A DNA stretch of 64,000 bases from Pseudoips prasinana (lineage: Eukaryota; Arthropoda; Insecta; Lepidoptera; Nolidae). The translations under genes and the position numbers were made by a program. The DNA lies in the NCBI GenBank assembly GCA_951640165.1, contig OX621253.1, positions 25,701,469 to 25,765,468 of the forward strand, in the 5' to 3' direction. The notes beneath the pieces are model-generated. The model had not been told where the DNA came from and searched no databases. It saw nothing but the letters and a program-made list of their open reading frames with translations. Shown in pieces: positions 371 to 64,000 of the stretch (the stretch's first letter is position 1; each line of letters begins with the position of its first letter).

Positions 371-601
371 CTTATAGCTTGCTTAAGGTACAAGTTGGTA
401 GCGGACGACATGAAGCTGCAGCAAACGACGTGTCGCAGCGACACTACTGGTTTCTACGTATTTCTATGAAATTCCCTCCGTAGTTAGCGACATGAAGCTA
501 ACGACGCGTCGTCGAGCGGCAGACGTCAGTGACGTCCGACCGCAGATCAGTAGAGCCGCTGACGCCGGAGCAACGACACGTCGAGCGTGTTTCTTTTCAA
601 A

Positions 602-3123
602 ATGAATTTTTCCGATTCTGAAGAAGATAAACTCATAAACCAGGTTGCCCAACATCCTGCACTGTACGATGCATCTCACAAAAACTATCTAAACACGGTC
701 ATAAAAGATAATATTTGGAAAAATATTGGAAAGGTGTTAAATAAAAGCGGTAAGTAATTAATTGTTTCTATTTAGTAATTGTAGTCATATTATAGTCAAT
801 ATATCATTGAGATAAATTAATTCAGATAAATTCTGGTATATTTTTAGTTACTTTCGGACATAGGTACTTCTGTTACCTACTATTTATCTGCCACAAGCTC
901 ACGGTGTGCGTGAGTTTATGCGAGTATGTAGGTATTGTAACGAGAGTGAGTGAGATAGGTTGATGTATGTACAGACAGATGAAATTCAGTTAGTTAGATA
1001 AAGGTAGTTTTTATATATTTTTATTGCAATATTACATAATTATGTGAAAAATAATAATACTTGTGGCAATGTTCTAATTACTATTTAAAACTTATTTAAA
1101 ATAACTTTTTTGAGGCATAATGTCATAAAATAATAAAAAGTTTAGACTCATTCTATTACATTCTATCTATAGCGGCTTCTTGCCATGAAACTGCACCATT
1201 TCCGCTACAAAAGAAATCTTTAAGTTTGTCTCTAATTTCGAAACCGTCGCTACTAGCAAATCCACCAAAACGGGCAAAGTCTATCATGTTATCCTCGGGA
1301 TTCTCTGTATCATCGTGGGTATAGAATGGAACGCTGTTACTTTCAAGATAACCATCCCGAAGAAGATTATGTAAACAACAAGTCGTTAATATTAGGTCAT
1401 CAACTACATCTGATGCTATAGCAATCGGAGTATAAAATACTCTGAATACTTGACTCAATAGCCCAAAAGCATTTTCTGTCACCCGGCGGCCTCGGCATAA
1501 TCTGAAGTTATAAATTTCTTTATTTCTTTCAAGTCTTGCCACTCTTCTAGGATAGGGTTTCATCATGTATCTACTTAATGCAAAGGCTTCGTCTCCGACC
1601 AGAAATTGAGGGAGGATTAAATTTGTTCCTGGTAAAACTTTTGGTGGCGGGATATTAAAATTATTGGCTTCTATTTGCCTCCCCATCAATGATTTTTGAA
1701 ATATACCATTGTCAGATTCTTTTCCGTAAGCACCAACATCAACTGCTACAAACTTATAATTAGCATCCACGATTGCTAATAGCACAATTGAAAAGTAGTT
1801 TTTGTAATTAAAAAACAATGATCCACTCTTTTTAGGTGCCCTGATTCGCACATGTTTCCCGTCTATTCCTCCTACGCAATTTGGTATATTCCATTTTTCC
1901 CAAAATTCACGTTCTATGCGTTTGAAATCGTTTTGTGATGCAGGTTTTATTAAAATAGGCACTAATTTCTGTCTCATAACTTTAAGAACACTCTTCAAAA
2001 TTTGGGATATGTAGCACTCTGATATGCGGTATGCAGTTGACAAAGACTTATAGGTTTCCCCTGTGGCCAAAAATCTGTAAAAAAAAATATTTTTATTATT
2101 TTTGTTTGCAGGTGAGGACTGTAAAAAGAAGTGGAAATCAATTCGTGACAGTTATCAGAGATATAAAAAAAACTCAAAACTGGGCACTGGCTCGGCTGCC
2201 CTAAAAAAATCGAAGCAAAACAGACATCTACAATTATCATTTCTAGACAATGTTCCACACCACAGAGCCGGAGGTACTAATGTAACTCCGTCACAACAGG
2301 AACTTGATGTCAATAATGAAAATGTTAGTGTTGATGAACAGGAACAAGATTTGGACATGACTTTTTCTTTTTTATCCAGTAATAATTCAGAGCAAAGTAA
2401 TACTGACCAAGAATTTGAAGAAGTTGGCACCGAAGCAACTGAAGTGGCGCCTAATGTTGTAAAGGCAACAACACCCAAAAAAGAGAAGAAAGAAGACAAA
2501 TTTTTGACATTATGGAAAAAAAGAGACGAACAGAGGCAGACACTATATAAAAATATGGTCAGAAGGATGGACGATGATATTGATCTATTTTGTAGACATA
2601 TTGGTGAAGTTTTACGTAATTTACCACCATATGAAAAAGCAAAGGCAAAGAAACATTTGGGTGCAGTTCTTTCAGACTACGAGATTATGGCAGCGAGTCA
2701 CTCATCTGGAAGAAACACAATTTCATCTCCCTCAAATTCAACGTCGAACGATCGTGCATCGACATCCTCAGAATTGTACACACCATCCCCACCACATAGT
2801 CAACATTTTATACGATCTTACTCTCCTCTTGGTACTACGACAGTTTCGCCAGAACTCGCCGGACAAGGCAATACACCGGGTGATTTCCACTTAGATGCAT
2901 ATTCTCTTAATAGTTCCGCGGCAGCGTCACCGGACCCTCAGGACCCTCCGGAATAACTAGCGGTCTAGGCTATGCACCAGGGCTAGTACACACGTCATAT
3001 GCCAATTCTCCCGTGAGTACTGAGGTAGGGTCACCAGAACCCACTGATCTATCCTTTCCGGTCAACCAAATCGACCAAGAGGAAGAACATAATTTTGTCG
3101 ACTCAGTCCTGAATTTTAAGTAA
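602..3123 (+). pseudogene. Harbinger-1 MADF-domain protein (two exons, C-terminal frameshift)
   Basis: Exon 1 runs 602-749 from an ATG (MNFSDSEEDKLINQ...) and ends at a consensus gtaagt donor. The acceptor (tttgcag) ends at 2111 and exon 2 starts at 2112. The codon is split after its first base and the frame stays open. The two halves together give a MADF (Myb/SANT-like) domain: exon 1 supplies the first helices (Y-x-N-x9-W), and exon 2 the CKKKWKSIRDSYQRYKK motif. A Ser/Thr/Pro-rich tail follows. The frame stops at 2954-2956, but another frame continues in similar composition (SGLGYAPGLVHTSYANSP...) to a TAA at 3121-3123. An indel near 2925-2950, beside a short ggaccctc repeat, therefore probably truncated the protein. 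In this superfamily the MADF/Myb partner binds element ends and helps transposase nuclear import. That role is inferred here. Confidence 0.8.
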
Positions 3124-3689
3124 TAAACAAATAGACTCAAAATTTTGCTCAAAACGTGTCCGCCGGCGGTGCATCCTGATTATAGACGTAATGACAATTA
3201 CGTACAACTGACATTGCACCTTAAACTAATGGCACAACTACTTCATTTGGTTAAATTATTTTATTTGTATTTGTATATGCATCGCCGTTCGGATGCATTT
3301 TAGTGAAATTTTCTTAGCGATTGTGAGTCTATTTGTTTATGATTGGTAATAATAAGTAAATTACTGACTTACCTCAATGTTAAAAATAATTTTTGCTCAG
3401 CATTTATGGCATTTATTTTCTTTGGCTCGATTTCTTCTCTGATTAAACATAATATAAAATCGAACTGTTTTTTATTTAAACGACAATACTCTCTGAATTC
3501 TTTCATATCGCTTTTCAAATGGTTTTTGATCAGGATTGAATAAGTTCCCTCACTTGCTCTGCATTTAAGCATAGGACGTGTGGCTTTTCGTCTTTTTCTG
3601 TATAATAAAAACAAGTCATCATCGTCTTCTTCCTCTTCTAATAAAAGATATAAAAAAATGCGATCACTATTTTCGAACACATCAGACAT
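1156..3689 (-). CDS. Harbinger-1 DDE transposase (HARBI1-like), two exons, open frame
   Basis: Exon 1 occupies 3689-3373 on the minus strand (MSDVFENSDR...EQKLFLTL). It ends in a gtaagt donor at 3372. Exon 2 begins at 2074 after a ttacag acceptor and reads through to a stop at 1156. Splicing makes the join ...LTLRFLATGETYKSL, the conserved start of the HTH_Tnp_4 region. The predicted protein is about 411 residues, within the usual HARBI1 range. The DDE_4 catalytic triad is visible: GGIDGKHV (first Asp), VGDEAF (second Asp) and VTENAFGLL (Glu). No stop or frameshift is seen. The 1.3-kb intron holds the antisense second exon of the MADF gene. The activity (DNA cleavage and strand transfer at TIRs) is inferred from the family. 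Confidence 0.88.
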
Positions 3690-3862
3690 CTTGTTTCACG
3701 GAGCACTCGGAACCAACTGGATGCCATCTGCTGTTGCCGTCTGCAGTCGGGTTCGAAATCATGACTGCAGCGACATGACGCAACGACGTGTCGCGACGAC
3801 ATGAAGCGACGACATGTCGTCTGTTGCTGCTGCGTGCAGTCGGCTACCAACTTGTACCTTTA

Positions 3863-4712
3863 TTGTTGTAAATACATAATAAAGTGCAGTACAATAAAAT
3901 GCCTAAGCAAGCTATAAGTTTAATTTTGTCTTTAAAGTAGTTTTATTTGTTTTTATCCGTAGTCCGATCTGATTGACGAAGCAATCACCGCACGGCCGCG
4001 CTTGACTTCTCTATCCTGCCGCTGCTTTGGTCACATCAGATCGGAGCCAGTAGGATATCTTGCCTAATGCGCTGGACGTACGTTCCAGGGTTCAAGTTTC
4101 CGGTTAAACTTTTCTCGGGTCGTGGCCCAATATATATGAAGGAAGTCTGACTCCTGCTGCCCTGGACGGTCCCTGTACGTCTGGACGTCACTCCTTCCTG
4201 GCTGCCAGGCTGCCCATCGCCGGTTTCGCGTCGCGTCGTCGCTTCAGTCCAGGGGAGTCAAGTATCTAAGCTCGGCAGAATTAAAGTAACGACCGGGCTG
4301 TTACCCACGGCCTACCACCATTTTTTTTAATATATTTTTTTTGTTAATTTATTATTAAAATTATTATTGATCACGGAGGTTGGCTTTCATTTAATAAAAC
4401 CCAAAAGAAACCCGTAACAATATAAAAAAATATATTTGAACATTTTCTTTATACTGAAATAGTCACAAAAATTGTTGACCATATAAATCATTTTCATAAT
4501 TATTAAACTGCAGTTATTCGACCTTCGAGATTACAATTTATTATTACTTGTAGTAGCACAATATGGTAATGCCACCTGTACACAATTTTAAAGCATTTCT
4601 AAGCAAAAATTATATGTTCCTGTGTTATCTGTATTTCATACACGTTTTGTGTGGCTACCATCTTACACATAATTATTTTCATGTTCTATGAAAATTCTAA
4701 TTAGCGAGTGAA
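3863..4712 (+). other. Possible LTR end (to about 4421), then unassigned AT-rich DNA
   Basis: From about 3950 to 4421 the sequence is GC-richer and looks LTR-like. It has a tatatatgaa stretch near 4130, an aattaaag near 4280, and ends in cccgtaaca. The start of such an LTR and a matching partner were not found, so a solo LTR is only a suggestion. From 4431 to 4712 there is AT-rich DNA with no recognisable gene. Confidence 0.25.
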
Positions 4713-14015: not shown

Positions 14016-14760
14016 AGCGAAAGTAAATTCCTTGCCGAAATTAATTAATAAAAGTGGTTTAAAGTGACAATTTAGAGAAAAATTTGCATGGACGATGTTA
14101 AATAACGAACTGTGAACAAAGTGAGAGTAGTGGAAGTGATTTGTGTTAATCTTCTAAACAGTAATTACCAAAAATACCAAATCAACACACAAAATACAAC
14201 GTCAATAACGGTACATTCCGATTGCTCGCGGTAAAATGCGTAAGCGCCACCATCTGCACGGCGCTTAGGACCTTCTTCGCGTTAAAATACGCACAGCTAT
14301 ATGTAACTGTCGTGACAAAGCACTTTCTGTTTACGGAAATGAGTAAATTAACTGGCGACGCAACAGCATCGAGTGACGAGAGAGATGATAGCAATAATGT
14401 TACCATTAAGGACTCTACCCACTACAACGTATCATACCATGACCGTGCTATGAACGTATCAGACACGACAAGCAACACTATACGCTCTACTATGCCCACT
14501 AGAGCGTATCAATTACGTATCAAAGTCGTATGGATCGGCTTTAATGACCGGAGCGTCAGCATATCATCTCATTATCATCCGAGTGACATGCCCGTGCGTA
14601 ACGATTTTAGTGACGGGAGGGTCCGCATACCATCTCCGTATCATCCGAGTGCCATATCCGAGCGGTCTCTGTGCGCTGTTGTCGCCTTTGTAGTAATTCA
14701 CCTGATTCCGTGTGAGGCAGACGCATCAGCAAGATCTTTTGAGAGGATTAATACGATACG
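14016..14760 (+). other. 5' part of a Harbinger deletion derivative; imperfect 66-bp tandem repeat
   Basis: This lies directly upstream of the Harbinger exon at 14761 and probably holds its terminal and 5' untranslated DNA. Two imperfect copies of a 66-bp unit (from 14546 and 14612) share catctc, tatcatccgagtg and cgag motifs, like subterminal binding sites. The 185-residue frame across it has no recognisable domain and appears fortuitous. Confidence 0.4.
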
Positions 14761-15076
14761 ATGGCAGTTAGAAAATTGACAATGAGGGAATTGGCAATGA
14801 TAGCCATTGCTTTAGACGAGGAAGAAAGAGAAAATAACAGACGATCGAGGCGTTACTGGGTTCACGCCGCTTTAAAAAAACGAAAAGTCGAGGGAGAATA
14901 CTGGACGTTATTCCGTCACTTAGTTGATGACGAAGAAAAAAATTATATCTATTTTCGTATGACGTCATTTCAATTTAATGAATTGTTAGAACAGATTGAA
15001 AACATCATCACTAGAAGAAACACCACATTTAGAGAAAGTTATACACCTAGAGAAAAACTGGCAGTGTGTCTTCGGT
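14761..15076 (+). pseudogene. Harbinger transposase first exon only (Harbinger-4)
   Basis: The frame begins MAVRKLTMRELAMIAIALDE, has RRYWVHAALKKRKVEGEYWT and YIYFRMTSFQFNELLEQI, and ends ...REKLAVCLR at a gtaagt donor. This is the N-terminal exon of a HARBI1-like transposase, comparable to the first exons in Harbinger-1 and Harbinger-2, which end ...LFLTLR and ...LGLTVR at the same splice position. No DDE exon follows, so this is an internally deleted copy. Confidence 0.75.
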
Positions 15077-33147: not shown

Positions 33148-33531
33148 CAGCAATAGAAATGGCGCAACCAAATTCAACTAAAAAAGTCTTTGAAGATCTT
33201 ATCGAAATTTATAGAAGGCATCCATGTCTTTGGCAAATTAAAAACAAAGATTATCATAATCGAGACAAAAAAGAAGATGCTTATAAATTACTCATAGACA
33301 AATTGAGAGAAATTGAGCCAGATGCGAACAAAGTAGTAGTTGTGAGGAAGATCAATAATTTAAGAAGGAATGTTAGGAAGGAAAAGAAGATATATGACCA
33401 ATCTTTAAAGTCTGAGGCAACTGCTGATGATGTATACCGTATAAAACTGTGGTACTACGATTTGTTCAAGTTCGTTCATGATCAATGCACTCCAAGAGAA
33501 TCTTCATCCAACAATGACGAAAATAGTTGTG
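33148..33531 (+). CDS. MADF-domain protein of a DNA transposon, first exon
   Basis: From an ATG at about 33136-33162 the frame reads KKVFEDLIEIYRRHPCLWQI, KDYHNRDKKEDAYKLLIDKL and ...VVRKINNLRRNVRKEKKIYD, ending LWYYDLFKFVHDQ and SSNNDENSCE. This is a full MADF (Myb/SANT-like) domain of about 90 residues. A gt follows at 33532, and the reading after that loses sense, so an intron or truncation begins there. Earlier codons back to 32868 are open but cross the terminal palindromes and are unlikely to be coding. MADF proteins serve as the DNA-binding partner in PIF/Harbinger elements. No transposase is adjacent in the window. Confidence 0.65.
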
Positions 33532-46198: not shown

Positions 46199-48312
46199 CT
46201 ATGGCAACAAGTGCATCGGACCCAAGTCAAGAATAGAATGTTCTCGATCGCTCAGCGTGGCCTCTTTAAATACCCGTGCACAAACAAGTCGAGTGTTGGG
46301 GAGGAGGGGACGGCGACATCGCCGGTCGGTCCGTTGCAAAGATTCTACTGTACTTTCATGTGTTGTTTCGTGTAAAATTTGCAAAGAATCGTCAATAATC
46401 ATTTCTTCAAACGTTTGTGCGCCATCTCGATTCAATACAAAGTTGTGTAATACACAGCATGCTTTTATAATGTCTATTGTGAAATCGTAAGAAACATTAA
46501 TGGGTCGATGAAATATGCGCCATTTATTTGCGAGTATGCCAAAAGCGCTCTCAACATATCGTCTGGCTCGGCTCAAACGATAATTAAAAACTCGTTTTTC
46601 TATCGATAAAAACTTCCCAGAATATGGGCGCATTATATTATTTGTCAGTGGTAATCCTTCATCCGCCACGAAGACAAAAGGAATTTCTTTTTGAAAGCCA
46701 GGTAACGGTTTTGGCGGAGGTATAGATAATTGACCTTTTTTTAATAAGTCGTATAGATTTGAGTTCTGAAAAACATTGGAGTCACATTCCTTACCATATG
46801 CACCTATATCGACATATATAAATTTGTAATTCGTATCAACAAGTGCTAATAGAACAATGGAATTATAATTTTTATAATTGAAAAATAGGGATCCACTGTG
46901 ATCCGGGCTCAATATACGAATGTGTTTTCCATCTAGCGCTCCTATACAATTAGGAAAGTTGGTCTTTTTTTCATACTCTTAAGCAATTTGTTCCATCAGC
47001 TCTGTTGTAATTTTTGGTAATTCCAACCTTTTAAGAATGTTCCATACAATACGACAAACAAATTTTATTATTCCTGTTATTGTAGATTTTCCACGATAAT
47101 ATGTGAAATGCATATCTTTAAAAGTATTTCCCGTCGCCAGGTACCTGAAAGAAAACAAAATAAATCATTATTCGTCATATTTTTTTAGGTAACGATGTCA
47201 TAAAGAAATGGAGAGGAATCAAGGATAATTTTACAAAATACGAAAAAAAATTAAACGAGCAATGTAAATCCGGAGCTGGGGCCAAAAAAATTAAACAATA
47301 TCATCTATACGACCAGCTCCTATTTCTGAAAAAGAATTCTCAAAATAAAACAACATCAAGTCTTGACGATGAAGAAATAAGACCAAGCACCTCAACCCAA
47401 CAAAGCCAGCAACCTGTCATGCCACGTTACCAGCCTGCATCGCGTAAAAGAAAAATTGACGAAGACGAATTTGAGAAGAATATTATAGCTGCTTTAAAAA
47501 CATCTGAAAGTAGACATTTATCTTTTTTTAAAGGAATTTTGCAATCATTGGAAAAATTGAATGATAATCAAACAATAATTTTCCAAAGTCGTGTCCTACA
47601 GATATTAAGTGATTTACACCAACCATCATACTATCCCAGCCACTATCAAACTTCACAAACATCCGTCCAAGCAAACTATCAAACATCTCAAACAACTGTT
47701 CAGACTGGCTATCAAACAGCTCAAATGTCTATGCAGAGTGGCTACCAATCAGCTCAAATGCCTATGCAGAGTGGCTATCAAACATCCATTCAACGCAGTG
47801 CCTTCCAAAGCGGATGCGAAACATCACCGGCACCTATGCAATCGTCTCCACAAACGCCAAGGAATGATGATGTAAATGAGCCAGAACAAATTCATTTCGA
47901 TGAGGAACTAACAAATTTGACGAATGACACACAATCGGAATACGAGTTTTGAATAACACTAAATTATGAAAATGATTAAACAGTATGATTATAGTAAAAA
48001 TAGTTTATTTTTTTCTTACCTTACAGTTAATCCCAGCATCTCCAGAGGTTCGATGGGTTTTCTAAATATGTATTTCTTTTGTAAATGAGGCTTTATCAAA
48101 CTAAGAAGTTCTTCAAAACTTACTACACTCATCCTAAAGTAATCGAAAAATTTAACCTCGTCCACTTTTAGCGCCTCATATTTCCTTTTGAAGTGGTTTC
48201 CATCTTTATTCATAATTGTCAGTAATGGGTGTACCCAGTACTTTCTTTTCTGTTTCTTTTTCTTAATACGCCTTAACGCAAGCAGAAGTAGAACACGCGC
48301 AGTGCGGTCCAT
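46199..48312 (-). pseudogene. Harbinger-2 transposase (two exons, one nonsense codon)
   Basis: Exon 1 (48312-48020) reads MDRTARVLLLLALRRIKKKK ... YFRMSVVSFEELLSLIKPHL ... LEMLGLTVR and ends at gtaaga. Exon 2 starts at 47144 after a ttctttcag acceptor. The splice restores an Arg codon before YLATGNTFKDM, at the same position and phase as in Harbinger-1. Triad: CIGALDGKHI, FVFVADEGLP and RYVESAFGILA. A TAA at about 46981-46983 interrupts the frame (LMEQIA-stop-EYEKK) and is the only lesion seen in the core. The C-terminal tail (ILDLGPMHLLP) differs from family habit, so the left part may have been replaced. The intron of 875 bases contains the MADF exon on the other strand. Confidence 0.82.
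47189..47952 (+). pseudogene. Harbinger-2 MADF protein, second exon only, with 33-bp tandem repeats
   Basis: After a ttttttag acceptor the frame reads GNDVIKKWRGIKDNFTKYEK, the second half of a MADF domain. It begins in the same splice phase as the matching exon in Harbinger-1. A basic DE-rich segment and FEKNIIAALKTSESRHLSFF (BESS-like) follow. At 47644-47775 are four tandem 11-residue units (YQTSQTSVQAN, YQTSQTTVQTG, YQTAQMSMQSG, YQSAQMPMQSG). The frame is open to 47952. No first exon was found in the 125 bases between the left end and the transposase stop, so the gene is 5'-deleted. Confidence 0.75.
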
Positions 48313-48851
48313 GTCTCACTAGTAACTGAACTGACGGTTAGCGTCTTGTCGTACGATGTCGTATCCGATGAAATTTTTGCGTTGCGACATCGCATCGCAT
48401 AGCTGTGCAATGTTGTTTTTGCGATGCGACGCCGCAACGCACTGTTGTGGCCTGGCCCGTTGCACCTGCAGCTTACAACAGCACGATGACGCACGTAGCG
48501 CCGTCATATACATTATTATTTCTAGTAACATAGATATTTAGGTACACATTGTATGAAAACATTTATAAAATTTATTTTATTATAGCAATGATATTTAGCT
48601 AACTCGTATCAAGTTATTGTCAAGAGATTATGTTTAATTATCTAGTTTAAGTCTAATATTTTTACTACATATTGTCAATGGTTCTGTCTATATTAAGGTA
48701 TTATTACTATGACGGACCTTGTGTTAATAACGACGGTCGCGCTTTAATGCTACCACCGGATCCAATGCGCCCCAACTGAGAAGACCCAGCGAAACAAACT
48801 CAGTGGGTTCATCTACTACCGGTTTCAACACGACCCAGTTGAGACGGTCCG

Positions 48852-62171: not shown

Positions 62172-63033
62172 TATAGATCCTTGGGGCACCCCCATTTGCA
62201 CAGGATGACGTGCCGAATTGACACCGCCTATCGAAACCATCTGTTCTCGCCCCGATAAATAGGACATCACAAGATCAAGAGATGCGCCAGATATTCCAAA
62301 ATACTTCAAGACATTAGAGACTTTAAGACAAAAGCTATGCGATATGAGTGTAAAAGATATATTTTTGAAATCTAGAAATATTCCAACGGAACGTTTGATA
62401 TACGTAGGTCCATGGAATAAGTTGGTAATGGTCTAACTGACGACCATTGCAGTTACTGATTAAATTACTCTGAGTAAATCCACAAAGAAGAAGAAAAAGA
62501 GAGAAGTGAGGCCATTACAATGAGTTCATAATTTTCAGGCTTGAGAGGAATTGGTTTACGAAATACACGAAATTCTCCTGGCTCTACAGTCTATAGTTGA
62601 AAATGCGTTTCATTGTGCCACGGTTATAAATATCCAGATACGACCTCATCAAGTTTTCCGATCAAGGAAATGCACTACCGCCCAGTATTACATAAGGAAG
62701 GTCAGGTCCATCTGGTGATATAGTTTCTTGGTTCGGAAAATTAAGACGGTCTTCCACCATTCTTTGGTAGAAACTCGTTTCTTGAAAGATGCTCTTCCTT
62801 TTGCACCACAGTTTGCATATAAAACATTATTATTAGCATCTAAAATAGCCAGTAGTACAATACTAAACTTATCTTTGTAGTTGTAGTAATCATTGTTACT
62901 ATTGCTAGGCGCTTCAATAACCACATGCGTTCCATCAATAGCTCCGATACAGTGTGGAATATTCCATAATTCGTTCCACCCACGGGCCTTTTCTTTCCAG
63001 TGCGCTTCAGAACTCGGAACCTTAAAAAAAGTG

Positions 63034-63510
63034 TTTAAAATTGCAGACAAACGGTGAAGACCTGGCAACTGAGGAACCATAACAGCAATCTGAGCAGCAG
63101 AAATCACAATCTCCACTATCACCATCCCCACTACCATCTACAAATAGCAAAAAAACAGCTAAAAGACAAGTGGATGACCATCTAAGTGAAGTATTTGAAA
63201 TAGTTAAATCTGCAAAACGCAAAATGGATATATCTTAGGATGAATATGATATTTATAGGTAGGCTTCAGAATTAAGAGAGCGGTACAAAACGAGACTGCC
63301 GTAATACAAGTTAAGGCTTATATTCATAATACTTTAATAGACATGCGAATGGGCAAATACAATTATGGTTACGGATATCATAGCCATCCCGGATATGAGA
63401 CTGCGTCGACACCAGCAAGTTCAACCTCACAAAAAGAATTTGAAACCATTGACGTGATAGTTTCACAAATCGCATCAGTAGAAGAAACCGATAGTAGTAC
63501 CCAGTAGATA
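63034..63510 (+). pseudogene. Harbinger-3 MADF gene, C-terminal exon relic
   Basis: The plus strand reads QQSEQQKSQSPLSPSPLPST, KKTAKRQVDDHLSEVFEIVK and SAKRKMD, then stops. It resumes as MRMGKYNYGYGYHSHPGYET and ASTPASSTSQKEFETIDVIV to a TAG at 63505-63507. The Lys-rich D-D-x-L-x-E-x-x-E-I-V block followed by a Ser/Gln tail fits the BESS-containing C-terminus of MADF partners. Stops near 63218, 63234 and 63261 show decay. It lies inside the antisense transposase intron. Confidence 0.5.
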
Positions 63511-63530
63511 GAACGCCTAATTTTGTATAA

Positions 63531-63776
63531 ATAACTAGCTGCCCGGTACGTGCTTCGCTACGTATAAGGCATAGTAATAAAAAAAATATTATTAAGTTCA
63601 TATATTCATTTTACACTTTATCAAGACTTTTTTTAAATTATCTCTACGTACAAACCTTCCCTGGACTTCCACGAATAATTCAAGACCAAAATTAGCCAAA
63701 TCGGTAAAGGCGTTGTTGAGTTATAACATTACAACGAAAAGTGGCATTGATTTTTATATATATAGATAAAAAATAT
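63531..63776. repeat. Dispersed arthropod repeat (ctagctgccc ... tatatatatagat)
   Basis: ctagctgcccggtacgtgct, caccaaatcggt-like (ccaaatcggtaaaggcgttg) and a tttttatatatatagat end are strings seen together in many insect genomes at the end of a nonautonomous element. I do not assign its superfamily. It is inserted in the Harbinger-3 intron. Confidence 0.45.
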
Positions 63777-64000
63777 GATTCATAACTCTTAGTTTCTCTT
63801 ACCTGGATGTAGTTTTTCAACACACGTATTATATTCTTACAAACTTCGGGTATGATCCGGCTGATAAATTGTTTGGAAACTCTTAAAAGTGTATGAGAGT
63901 GAAGAATATGAATCTCCAGTAGCTAAGTATCTTAAAGTAATGGCTAGTCTTGTTTCAGCGGTAACTGCACTTCGTAAGTTTGTATCTCATTTCTCTATAA

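Follow-up and report, generated by a model that had tools for sequence, protein, structure and literature searches.

PIF/Harbinger elements, with Ping/Pong of rice and Harbinger3_DR of zebrafish as examples, carry two genes in one element, one encoding a transposase with a DDE_Tnp_4 domain and the other a protein of the Myb/SANT/MADF type, and they are bounded by short inverted ends and by 3-bp, mostly TWA, target duplications (PMC9710019; PMC2836001; PMC9179366). Both proteins are needed for transposition of the rice and zebrafish elements (PMC2836001; PMC9710019), and in Harbinger systems the Myb/MADF protein provides DNA binding and nuclear import (PMC9710019; PMC2836001). The present analysis concerns an element with the same pair of proteins and the same kinds of ends and target sites, F1, which lies at positions 386 to 3859 of a 64,000-nucleotide stretch of the Pseudoips prasinana genome (contig OX621253.1), hereafter the window. 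Unlike the two-gene elements described in the accessible parts of those accounts, in which reciprocal interleaving does not appear (PMC9710019; PMC2836001; PMC9179366), F1 has its MADF and transposase genes on opposite strands with the second exon of each inside the intron of the other, and this interlock recurs in diverged families of the same genome.

Two other known classes come close to this arrangement. The co-domesticated PIF transposase/MADF pairs of insects, APLG/APM in Anopheles and LPLG2/LPM2 in Lepidoptera, consist of the same two proteins and include two-exon transposases, but as described there the genes are adjacent or further apart, single copy and without transposon ends (PMC9710019). 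Antiparallel overlapping host genes, in which coding exons lie over introns of the opposite-strand gene, are likewise a known class; their overlaps are reported as mostly species-specific (PMC2330155), whereas in F1 the interlock is reciprocal and extends over an entire mobile element, and several families share it. The initial annotation of the window had regarded the arrangement as undescribed. An interlocked Harbinger is absent from the accessible text of PMC9710019, PMC8493703, PMC11893794, PMC12730594, PMC9179366, PMC2330155, PMC4528330 and PMC2836001, and a term search of PMC2891614 returned none; the claim therefore stands for this open-licence literature, and key older papers may hold an earlier description.

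The features of F1 are given below in window coordinates.

383..385, no strand: left copy of the target site duplication TTA (right copy at 3860-3862)
386..3859, no strand: F1 Harbinger element, 3474 bp in the window (3467 or 3477 bp in the other eight copies)
386..402, plus strand: left terminal inverted repeat, 17 bp, AGGTACAAGTTGGTAGC
406..583, no strand: left subterminal CGACRTG sites, candidate MADF binding sites, four of the nine in the element
602..749, plus strand: MADF exon 1, which splits codon 50
1156..2074, minus strand: transposase exon 2, to residue 411, with the DDE domain
2075..2111, no strand: 37-bp spacer in which both 3' splice sites stand back to back, the minus-strand acceptor beside 2074 and the plus-strand acceptor beside 2112
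2112..2956, plus strand: MADF exon 2 as read in the window copy, with its stop at 2954-2956 after a frameshift (protein of 330 residues)
2931..2938, plus strand: 8-bp insertion, present in the window copy alone among nine F1 copies, which shifts the MADF frame
2957..3123, plus strand: rest of MADF exon 2 in copies without the insertion (protein of 383 residues), its C-terminus conserved in Trichoplusia ni P0121
3373..3689, minus strand: transposase exon 1, codons 1-106, the last codon split
3843..3859, minus strand: right terminal inverted repeat, 17 bp

Judged by its sequence, this segment is a PIF/Harbinger DNA transposon. A profile search places DDE_Tnp_4 (PF13359) at residues 176-342 of the transposase (E 3.2e-25), and the second protein has a domain of the Myb/SANT/MADF type, PF10545. 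A DNA search of the 1.13-Gb genome, in which copy numbers are lower bounds, found nine full-length copies with 99-100% identity, spread over seven contigs. The 17-bp inverted ends are exact on both sides in all nine, and an identical 3-bp target duplication flanks eight (TTA in six, TAA in one and ATA in one, L006), the ninth, L008, having a mismatched site (TAA/TTA); duplications of the TWA type occur in seven of the nine. Each copy differs from the majority sequence by 1 to 10 substitutions, with a few insertions or deletions besides, and the F1 copies are therefore young. A perfect 15-bp inverted repeat, CTTATAGCTTGCTTA, stands at 371-385 and 3904-3918 on either side of the insertion, which suggests that F1 inserted into, or next to, a hairpin of the host or some other small element.

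The claim that the four exons interleave is borne out: MADF exons 602-749 and 2112-3123 alternate with transposase exons 3689-3373 and 2074-1156, and introns 750-2111 and 3372-2075 each enclose the second exon of the partner gene. As read from the DNA, the reciprocal interlock of F1 is real, each second exon lying within the partner's intron on the opposite strand. Copies of the family with non-interleaved genes, which the initial annotation had named as a possible refutation, did not turn up among the nine F1 copies, all of which share the layout. The splice sites follow GT...AG as had been claimed, with MADF exon 1 ending in GCG/GTAAGT (the slash marks the exon border) and exon 2 beginning at 2112 after TTTGTTTGCAG, and with transposase exon 1 ending in GAG/GTAAGT and exon 2 beginning after TTTTTTTTTACAG. 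The accompanying statement that both frames are kept was right for the spliced transposase, which is intact in the window copy at 411 residues, and wrong for the MADF gene of that copy, in which the exons to 3123 sum to 148 + 1012 = 1160 nucleotides, not a multiple of three, and the 8-bp insertion brings the stop to 2956 instead of 3123. A full 383-residue MADF frame with an ATG, together with the 411-residue transposase, is found in four of the nine copies (L003, L005, L006 and L007). The interval from the MADF stop to transposase exon 1 contains an inverted repeat of 21 nucleotides, 95% complementary (3123-3143 and 3320-3340).

Protein comparisons place both predicted junctions within conserved sequence. 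The spliced MADF protein spans its junction with the whole 84-position MADF profile (PF10545; residues 11-94, profile 1-84, E 8.4e-19), and Trichoplusia ni P0121, of 379 residues, is 82% identical to F1 MADF over the whole length. Across the transposase junction LTLR/FLATGE, P0001 of Loxostege sticticalis and P0002 of Diabrotica virgifera align without gaps. Among the 120 transposase relatives listed of 3546 matches, 30 of the 34 BLAST alignments that span the junction are ungapped there and four are gapped. In the same set, 69 relatives start between residues 96 and 112, 43 of them exactly at 108, where exon 2 begins. These starts may reflect many genomic contigs that hold exon 2 alone, with an intron at the same place, and first exons are therefore often missed in annotation.

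Public relatives of one or both F1 proteins, all of them annotations or predictions, occur in Trichoplusia ni, Loxostege, Diabrotica, Eumeta, Cydia and Maniola jurtina, and the transposase of the beetle Diabrotica is nearly as close to that of F1 (69% identity) as is the best moth transposase (72%). The longest contig is 2981 bp for both the public transposase P0008 and the public MADF protein P0124, which hints at a single contig, with the order of the genes not shown by these records. Viral contigs, searched with the F1 transposase and with an alignment, gave no relatives, nor did genome contigs searched with the alignment. By eye, the annotated Eumeta japonica protein P0122 seems to read through the F1 inverted end into MADF exon 2, and it may be either a fusion of host and transposon sequence or an artefact of annotation. 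Another locus, L023, was first taken for an intron-free MADF gene; it is an F1-like relic that breaks off after exon 1 with its donor site.

The interlock is present in every copy read of the families with all four exons: nine of nine in F1, nine of nine in F2, seven of seven full copies in F3, two of two in F4, and the single element H4. The same order is thus found in five lineages, and it is compatible with four more that are seen in part (F5, F6, L019 and H3). In F2 the sequence in all nine copies is MADF exon 1 (plus), transposase exon 2 (minus), MADF exon 2 (plus), transposase exon 1 (minus), or its mirror image, with damage in the form of an insertion in MADF exon 2 of L013 and of broken transposases in L017 and L018. 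F1 and F2 share intron sites and phases at 71% identity between transposases and 49% between MADF proteins. Their identity at codon positions 1, 2 and 3 is 0.77, 0.84 and 0.53 in the transposase and 0.61, 0.72 and 0.36 in MADF, a pattern that points to coding constraint on both strands, and the transposases have a nonsynonymous divergence (dN) of 0.22 and a synonymous divergence (dS) of 1.72, dS being saturated for MADF. Because the four-exon order recurs in diverged families and the first two codon positions are more conserved than the third in both genes, the arrangement is not due to chance.

F3 is more distant. Besides H2, a truncated copy in the window, there are ten places that match query bases 153-2260 and further partial ones; seven were read (L032-L038), and each has all four exons in the same order. 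The F3 majority sequence contains a 313-residue MADF frame and a 391-residue transposase frame, with intron sites and phases as in F1. Because the transposases of F1 and F3 are only 37% identical, the layout is long-lived and not an accident of one copy. Both F4 copies that were read have the four exons in the interlocked order. F5, with three exons, and F6, with two, are compatible with it, and L019 has its two second exons back to back with F1-like exon borders, its first exons not being found. The spacer between the two acceptors measures 38 bp in the F1 majority sequence, 44 bp in F3, 46 bp in H4 and 373 bp in F2.

46351..48458, no strand: H2, truncated F3 copy, compatible with the interlock, MADF exon 1 absent there
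47144 leftward, minus strand: transposase exon 2 of H2
47189-47952, plus strand: MADF exon 2 of H2
48312-48020, minus strand: transposase exon 1 of H2

A second lineage, B, comprises H4, H3 and N1, all of them decayed.

C19:25792801-25795065, in the 44 kb that adjoin the window on its right: H4, in the order transposase exon 1 (plus), MADF exon 2 (minus), transposase exon 2 (plus), MADF exon 1 (minus)
62510..63986, transposase on the minus strand: H3, decayed lineage-B element, with a donor after 63803 and an acceptor before 63020, both splice sites read by eye
63083-63507, plus strand: C-terminal part of the H3 MADF gene, inside the transposase intron

H4 is the same interlock seen from the other strand, again with two acceptors back to back, and it differs from F1 in where the proteins are divided. 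Its transposase is split about 42 residues later, its MADF protein is split after the MADF domain (codon 116) as opposed to inside it (codon 50 in F1), and its intron phases are 0 and 0 as against 2 and 1. H3 has the transposase intron at the H4 site, and MADF exon 2 of H4 matches 63277-63429 of the window (39.6%, E 7e-6), by which the segment inside that intron is recognised as MADF. Five further places (on C12, C16 and C8, and two on C20) each give a single continuous match to the H4 region, at 91-94%; the query missed the far end of H4, and these matches were used for order and spacing only. At two places from that H4-region search, C7:21428482-21429380 (N1) and C15:15942215-15943208, the transposase exons are only 110 bp apart. 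In N1 the transposase is interrupted at the H4 site by an intron of 126 bp, and the MADF gene is convergent with the transposase, situated entirely past its end and split into several pieces that are separated by inserted repeats. The interlock is therefore not universal among the Harbinger elements of this genome. In a tree rooted at the midpoint only, N1 is sister to H4 and H3 (support 100/99 for the group of three and 97/82 for the pair H4 and H3). The H3 region (L026, about 1406-2500; on C19, running rightward from the final bases of the window) contains a 426-bp unit, repeated three times in tandem, in which the MADF 3' end is joined to a transposase exon. On the flank beside L029, at 94077-94652 in continued window numbering, a MADF N-terminus (plus) is followed directly by transposase exon 1 (minus), an order that suggests a lineage-B element with an internal deletion.

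Overall, F1 is very probably a recently active two-gene PIF/Harbinger transposon whose interlocked genes would be transcribed inward, in an exon order that was inherited and that probably arose by duplication and loss of a block of exons. The two transcripts would start from opposite ends of the element, and each would cross the partner's second exon in antisense and lose it as intron. By analogy with the rice and zebrafish Harbinger elements, the MADF protein would bind repeats just inside the ends and recruit the DDE transposase there, and movement would be by cut and paste into TWA sites. Candidate repeats of this kind are present. All nine CGACRTG sites of F1 fall in its outer 216/170 bp, the five that are not on the left being within 90 bp of the right-hand terminus, and in F2 all 11 occurrences of the subterminal motif GCAGCANTG are in the outer ends. 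Both motifs were picked after the commonest 7-mers had been viewed, and the commonest end 7-mers, with 6 and 7 copies, were more frequent than in any of 200 shuffles.

The extent of antisense pairing needs correction. The initial annotation had put the complementarity of the primary transcripts at about 2.5 kb, which is too high, as the coding ends (1156-3123) are about 2.0 kb apart and the first polyadenylation signals, at about 1025 for the transposase and about 3122 for MADF, about 2.1 kb. The F1 pre-mRNAs would overlap over this latter length, and the mature F1 mRNAs need not. In F2 a distance of 11 bp separates the MADF stop from transposase exon 1, and the first polyadenylation signals are antisense to that exon, so that the mature mRNAs may overlap and pair.

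Such an arrangement would have consequences for the elements that carry it. Genes threaded through each other's introns would not easily be separated, deleted or domesticated singly, and every primary transcript of one gene would be antisense to an exon of the other, so the interlock bears on the silencing or co-domestication of Harbinger gene pairs. An interlock kept through deep divergence beside an unlocked close relative can also be viewed as a natural experiment on the origin and persistence of overlapping antisense genes.

Several observations weigh against this account of F1 and its relatives. The splicing of both introns as drawn rests on homology. The MADF frame is broken in the window copy, and MADF is damaged in five of the nine F1 copies; across L001-L018, MADF is broken in five of nine F1 and three of nine F2 copies (8/18) and the transposase in none of nine and two of nine (2/18), a bias that is possibly chance and is not strong enough to argue from. 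One exon is missing from H2, and one or two are missing from L019, F5 and F6. Layouts were sampled through DNA similarity and from the 44 kb beside the window, with more F3, F4 and H4 places listed than read. Some public relatives at about 50% identity (P0014, P0017, P0055) have the two parts of the transposase together on contigs no longer than 1.2-2.1 kb, and these may be spliced transcripts or else intron-free transposase genes, which would not be interlocked. Finally, no trace of the proposed duplication and loss was found in these elements.

As to how the interlock came about, the block of two second exons in a convergent gene pair might have been duplicated in tandem and the complementary, outer copies then lost, which would leave the second exons swapped; once formed, the interlock would be hard to undo by one rearrangement. 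The 426-bp repeats of H3 show only that duplications occur in these elements. Because the H4/H3 and F1 groups split both proteins differently, and because N1 has the H4-type intron without the interlock, two independent origins are the simplest explanation, and the interlock was probably built more than once. A little short of an even chance is given to the broader proposition that interlocking is recurrent in lepidopteran, perhaps insect, Harbingers, with at least two independent origins from convergent elements by a swap of second exons at different split points, and that it is kept for long periods because it is not reversible in one step or because it couples expression.

An interlock ancestral to all lineages, with both intron positions later moved in H4/H3 and a reversion to the convergent state in N1, is unlikely in our estimate, though it deserves serious consideration. 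It would account for L019, which has F1-like borders and groups with H4, H3 and N1 (90/90; 82/89 in later trees), while F1, F2 and F3-F6, with the same borders, fall on the other side. However, no first exon was found for L019, which occupies 35% of the columns in the tree, and the tree is rooted at the midpoint only. For both genes to have coding segments moved past an exon of the partner would, moreover, be harder than a second origin, and N1 has the H4 transposase intron site with an intron of only 126 bp.

A selected interlock, in which double-stranded RNA or mutual blocking limits transposase output or in which the two required genes are kept together, appears less probable still. That the layout has been kept across deep divergence and was probably built twice would fit with selection, as would the possible pairing of even the mature mRNAs in F2. 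However, N1 does without the interlock in the same genome, and the one deficit that might have reflected antisense avoidance, from an underpowered test of antisense polyadenylation and donor signals, goes in the expected direction and is not significant: the second exons, two in F1 and two in F2, contain 0 antisense AATAAA against 2.4 expected under synonymous shuffling, with a joint chance of about 0.06 in one of 24 comparisons. That the exon pairs are unrelated fragments of nested insertions with accidental spliced models, an idea to which a window rich in nested transposons lends some colour, merits practically no credence, as it is refuted by the copy alignments, in which all nine are whole and share a single set of ends, eight having matching target duplications, and by the recurrence of the order in families whose transposases are 37-71% identical to that of F1.

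Two minor features elsewhere in the window belong to the same class of elements or resemble parts of them. A lone relic of transposase exon 1 at 14752-15075 ends at a splice site of the F1 type, and another MADF-like reading frame, at 33198-33461, has 28% identity to the H4 MADF protein, with no transposase match beside it.

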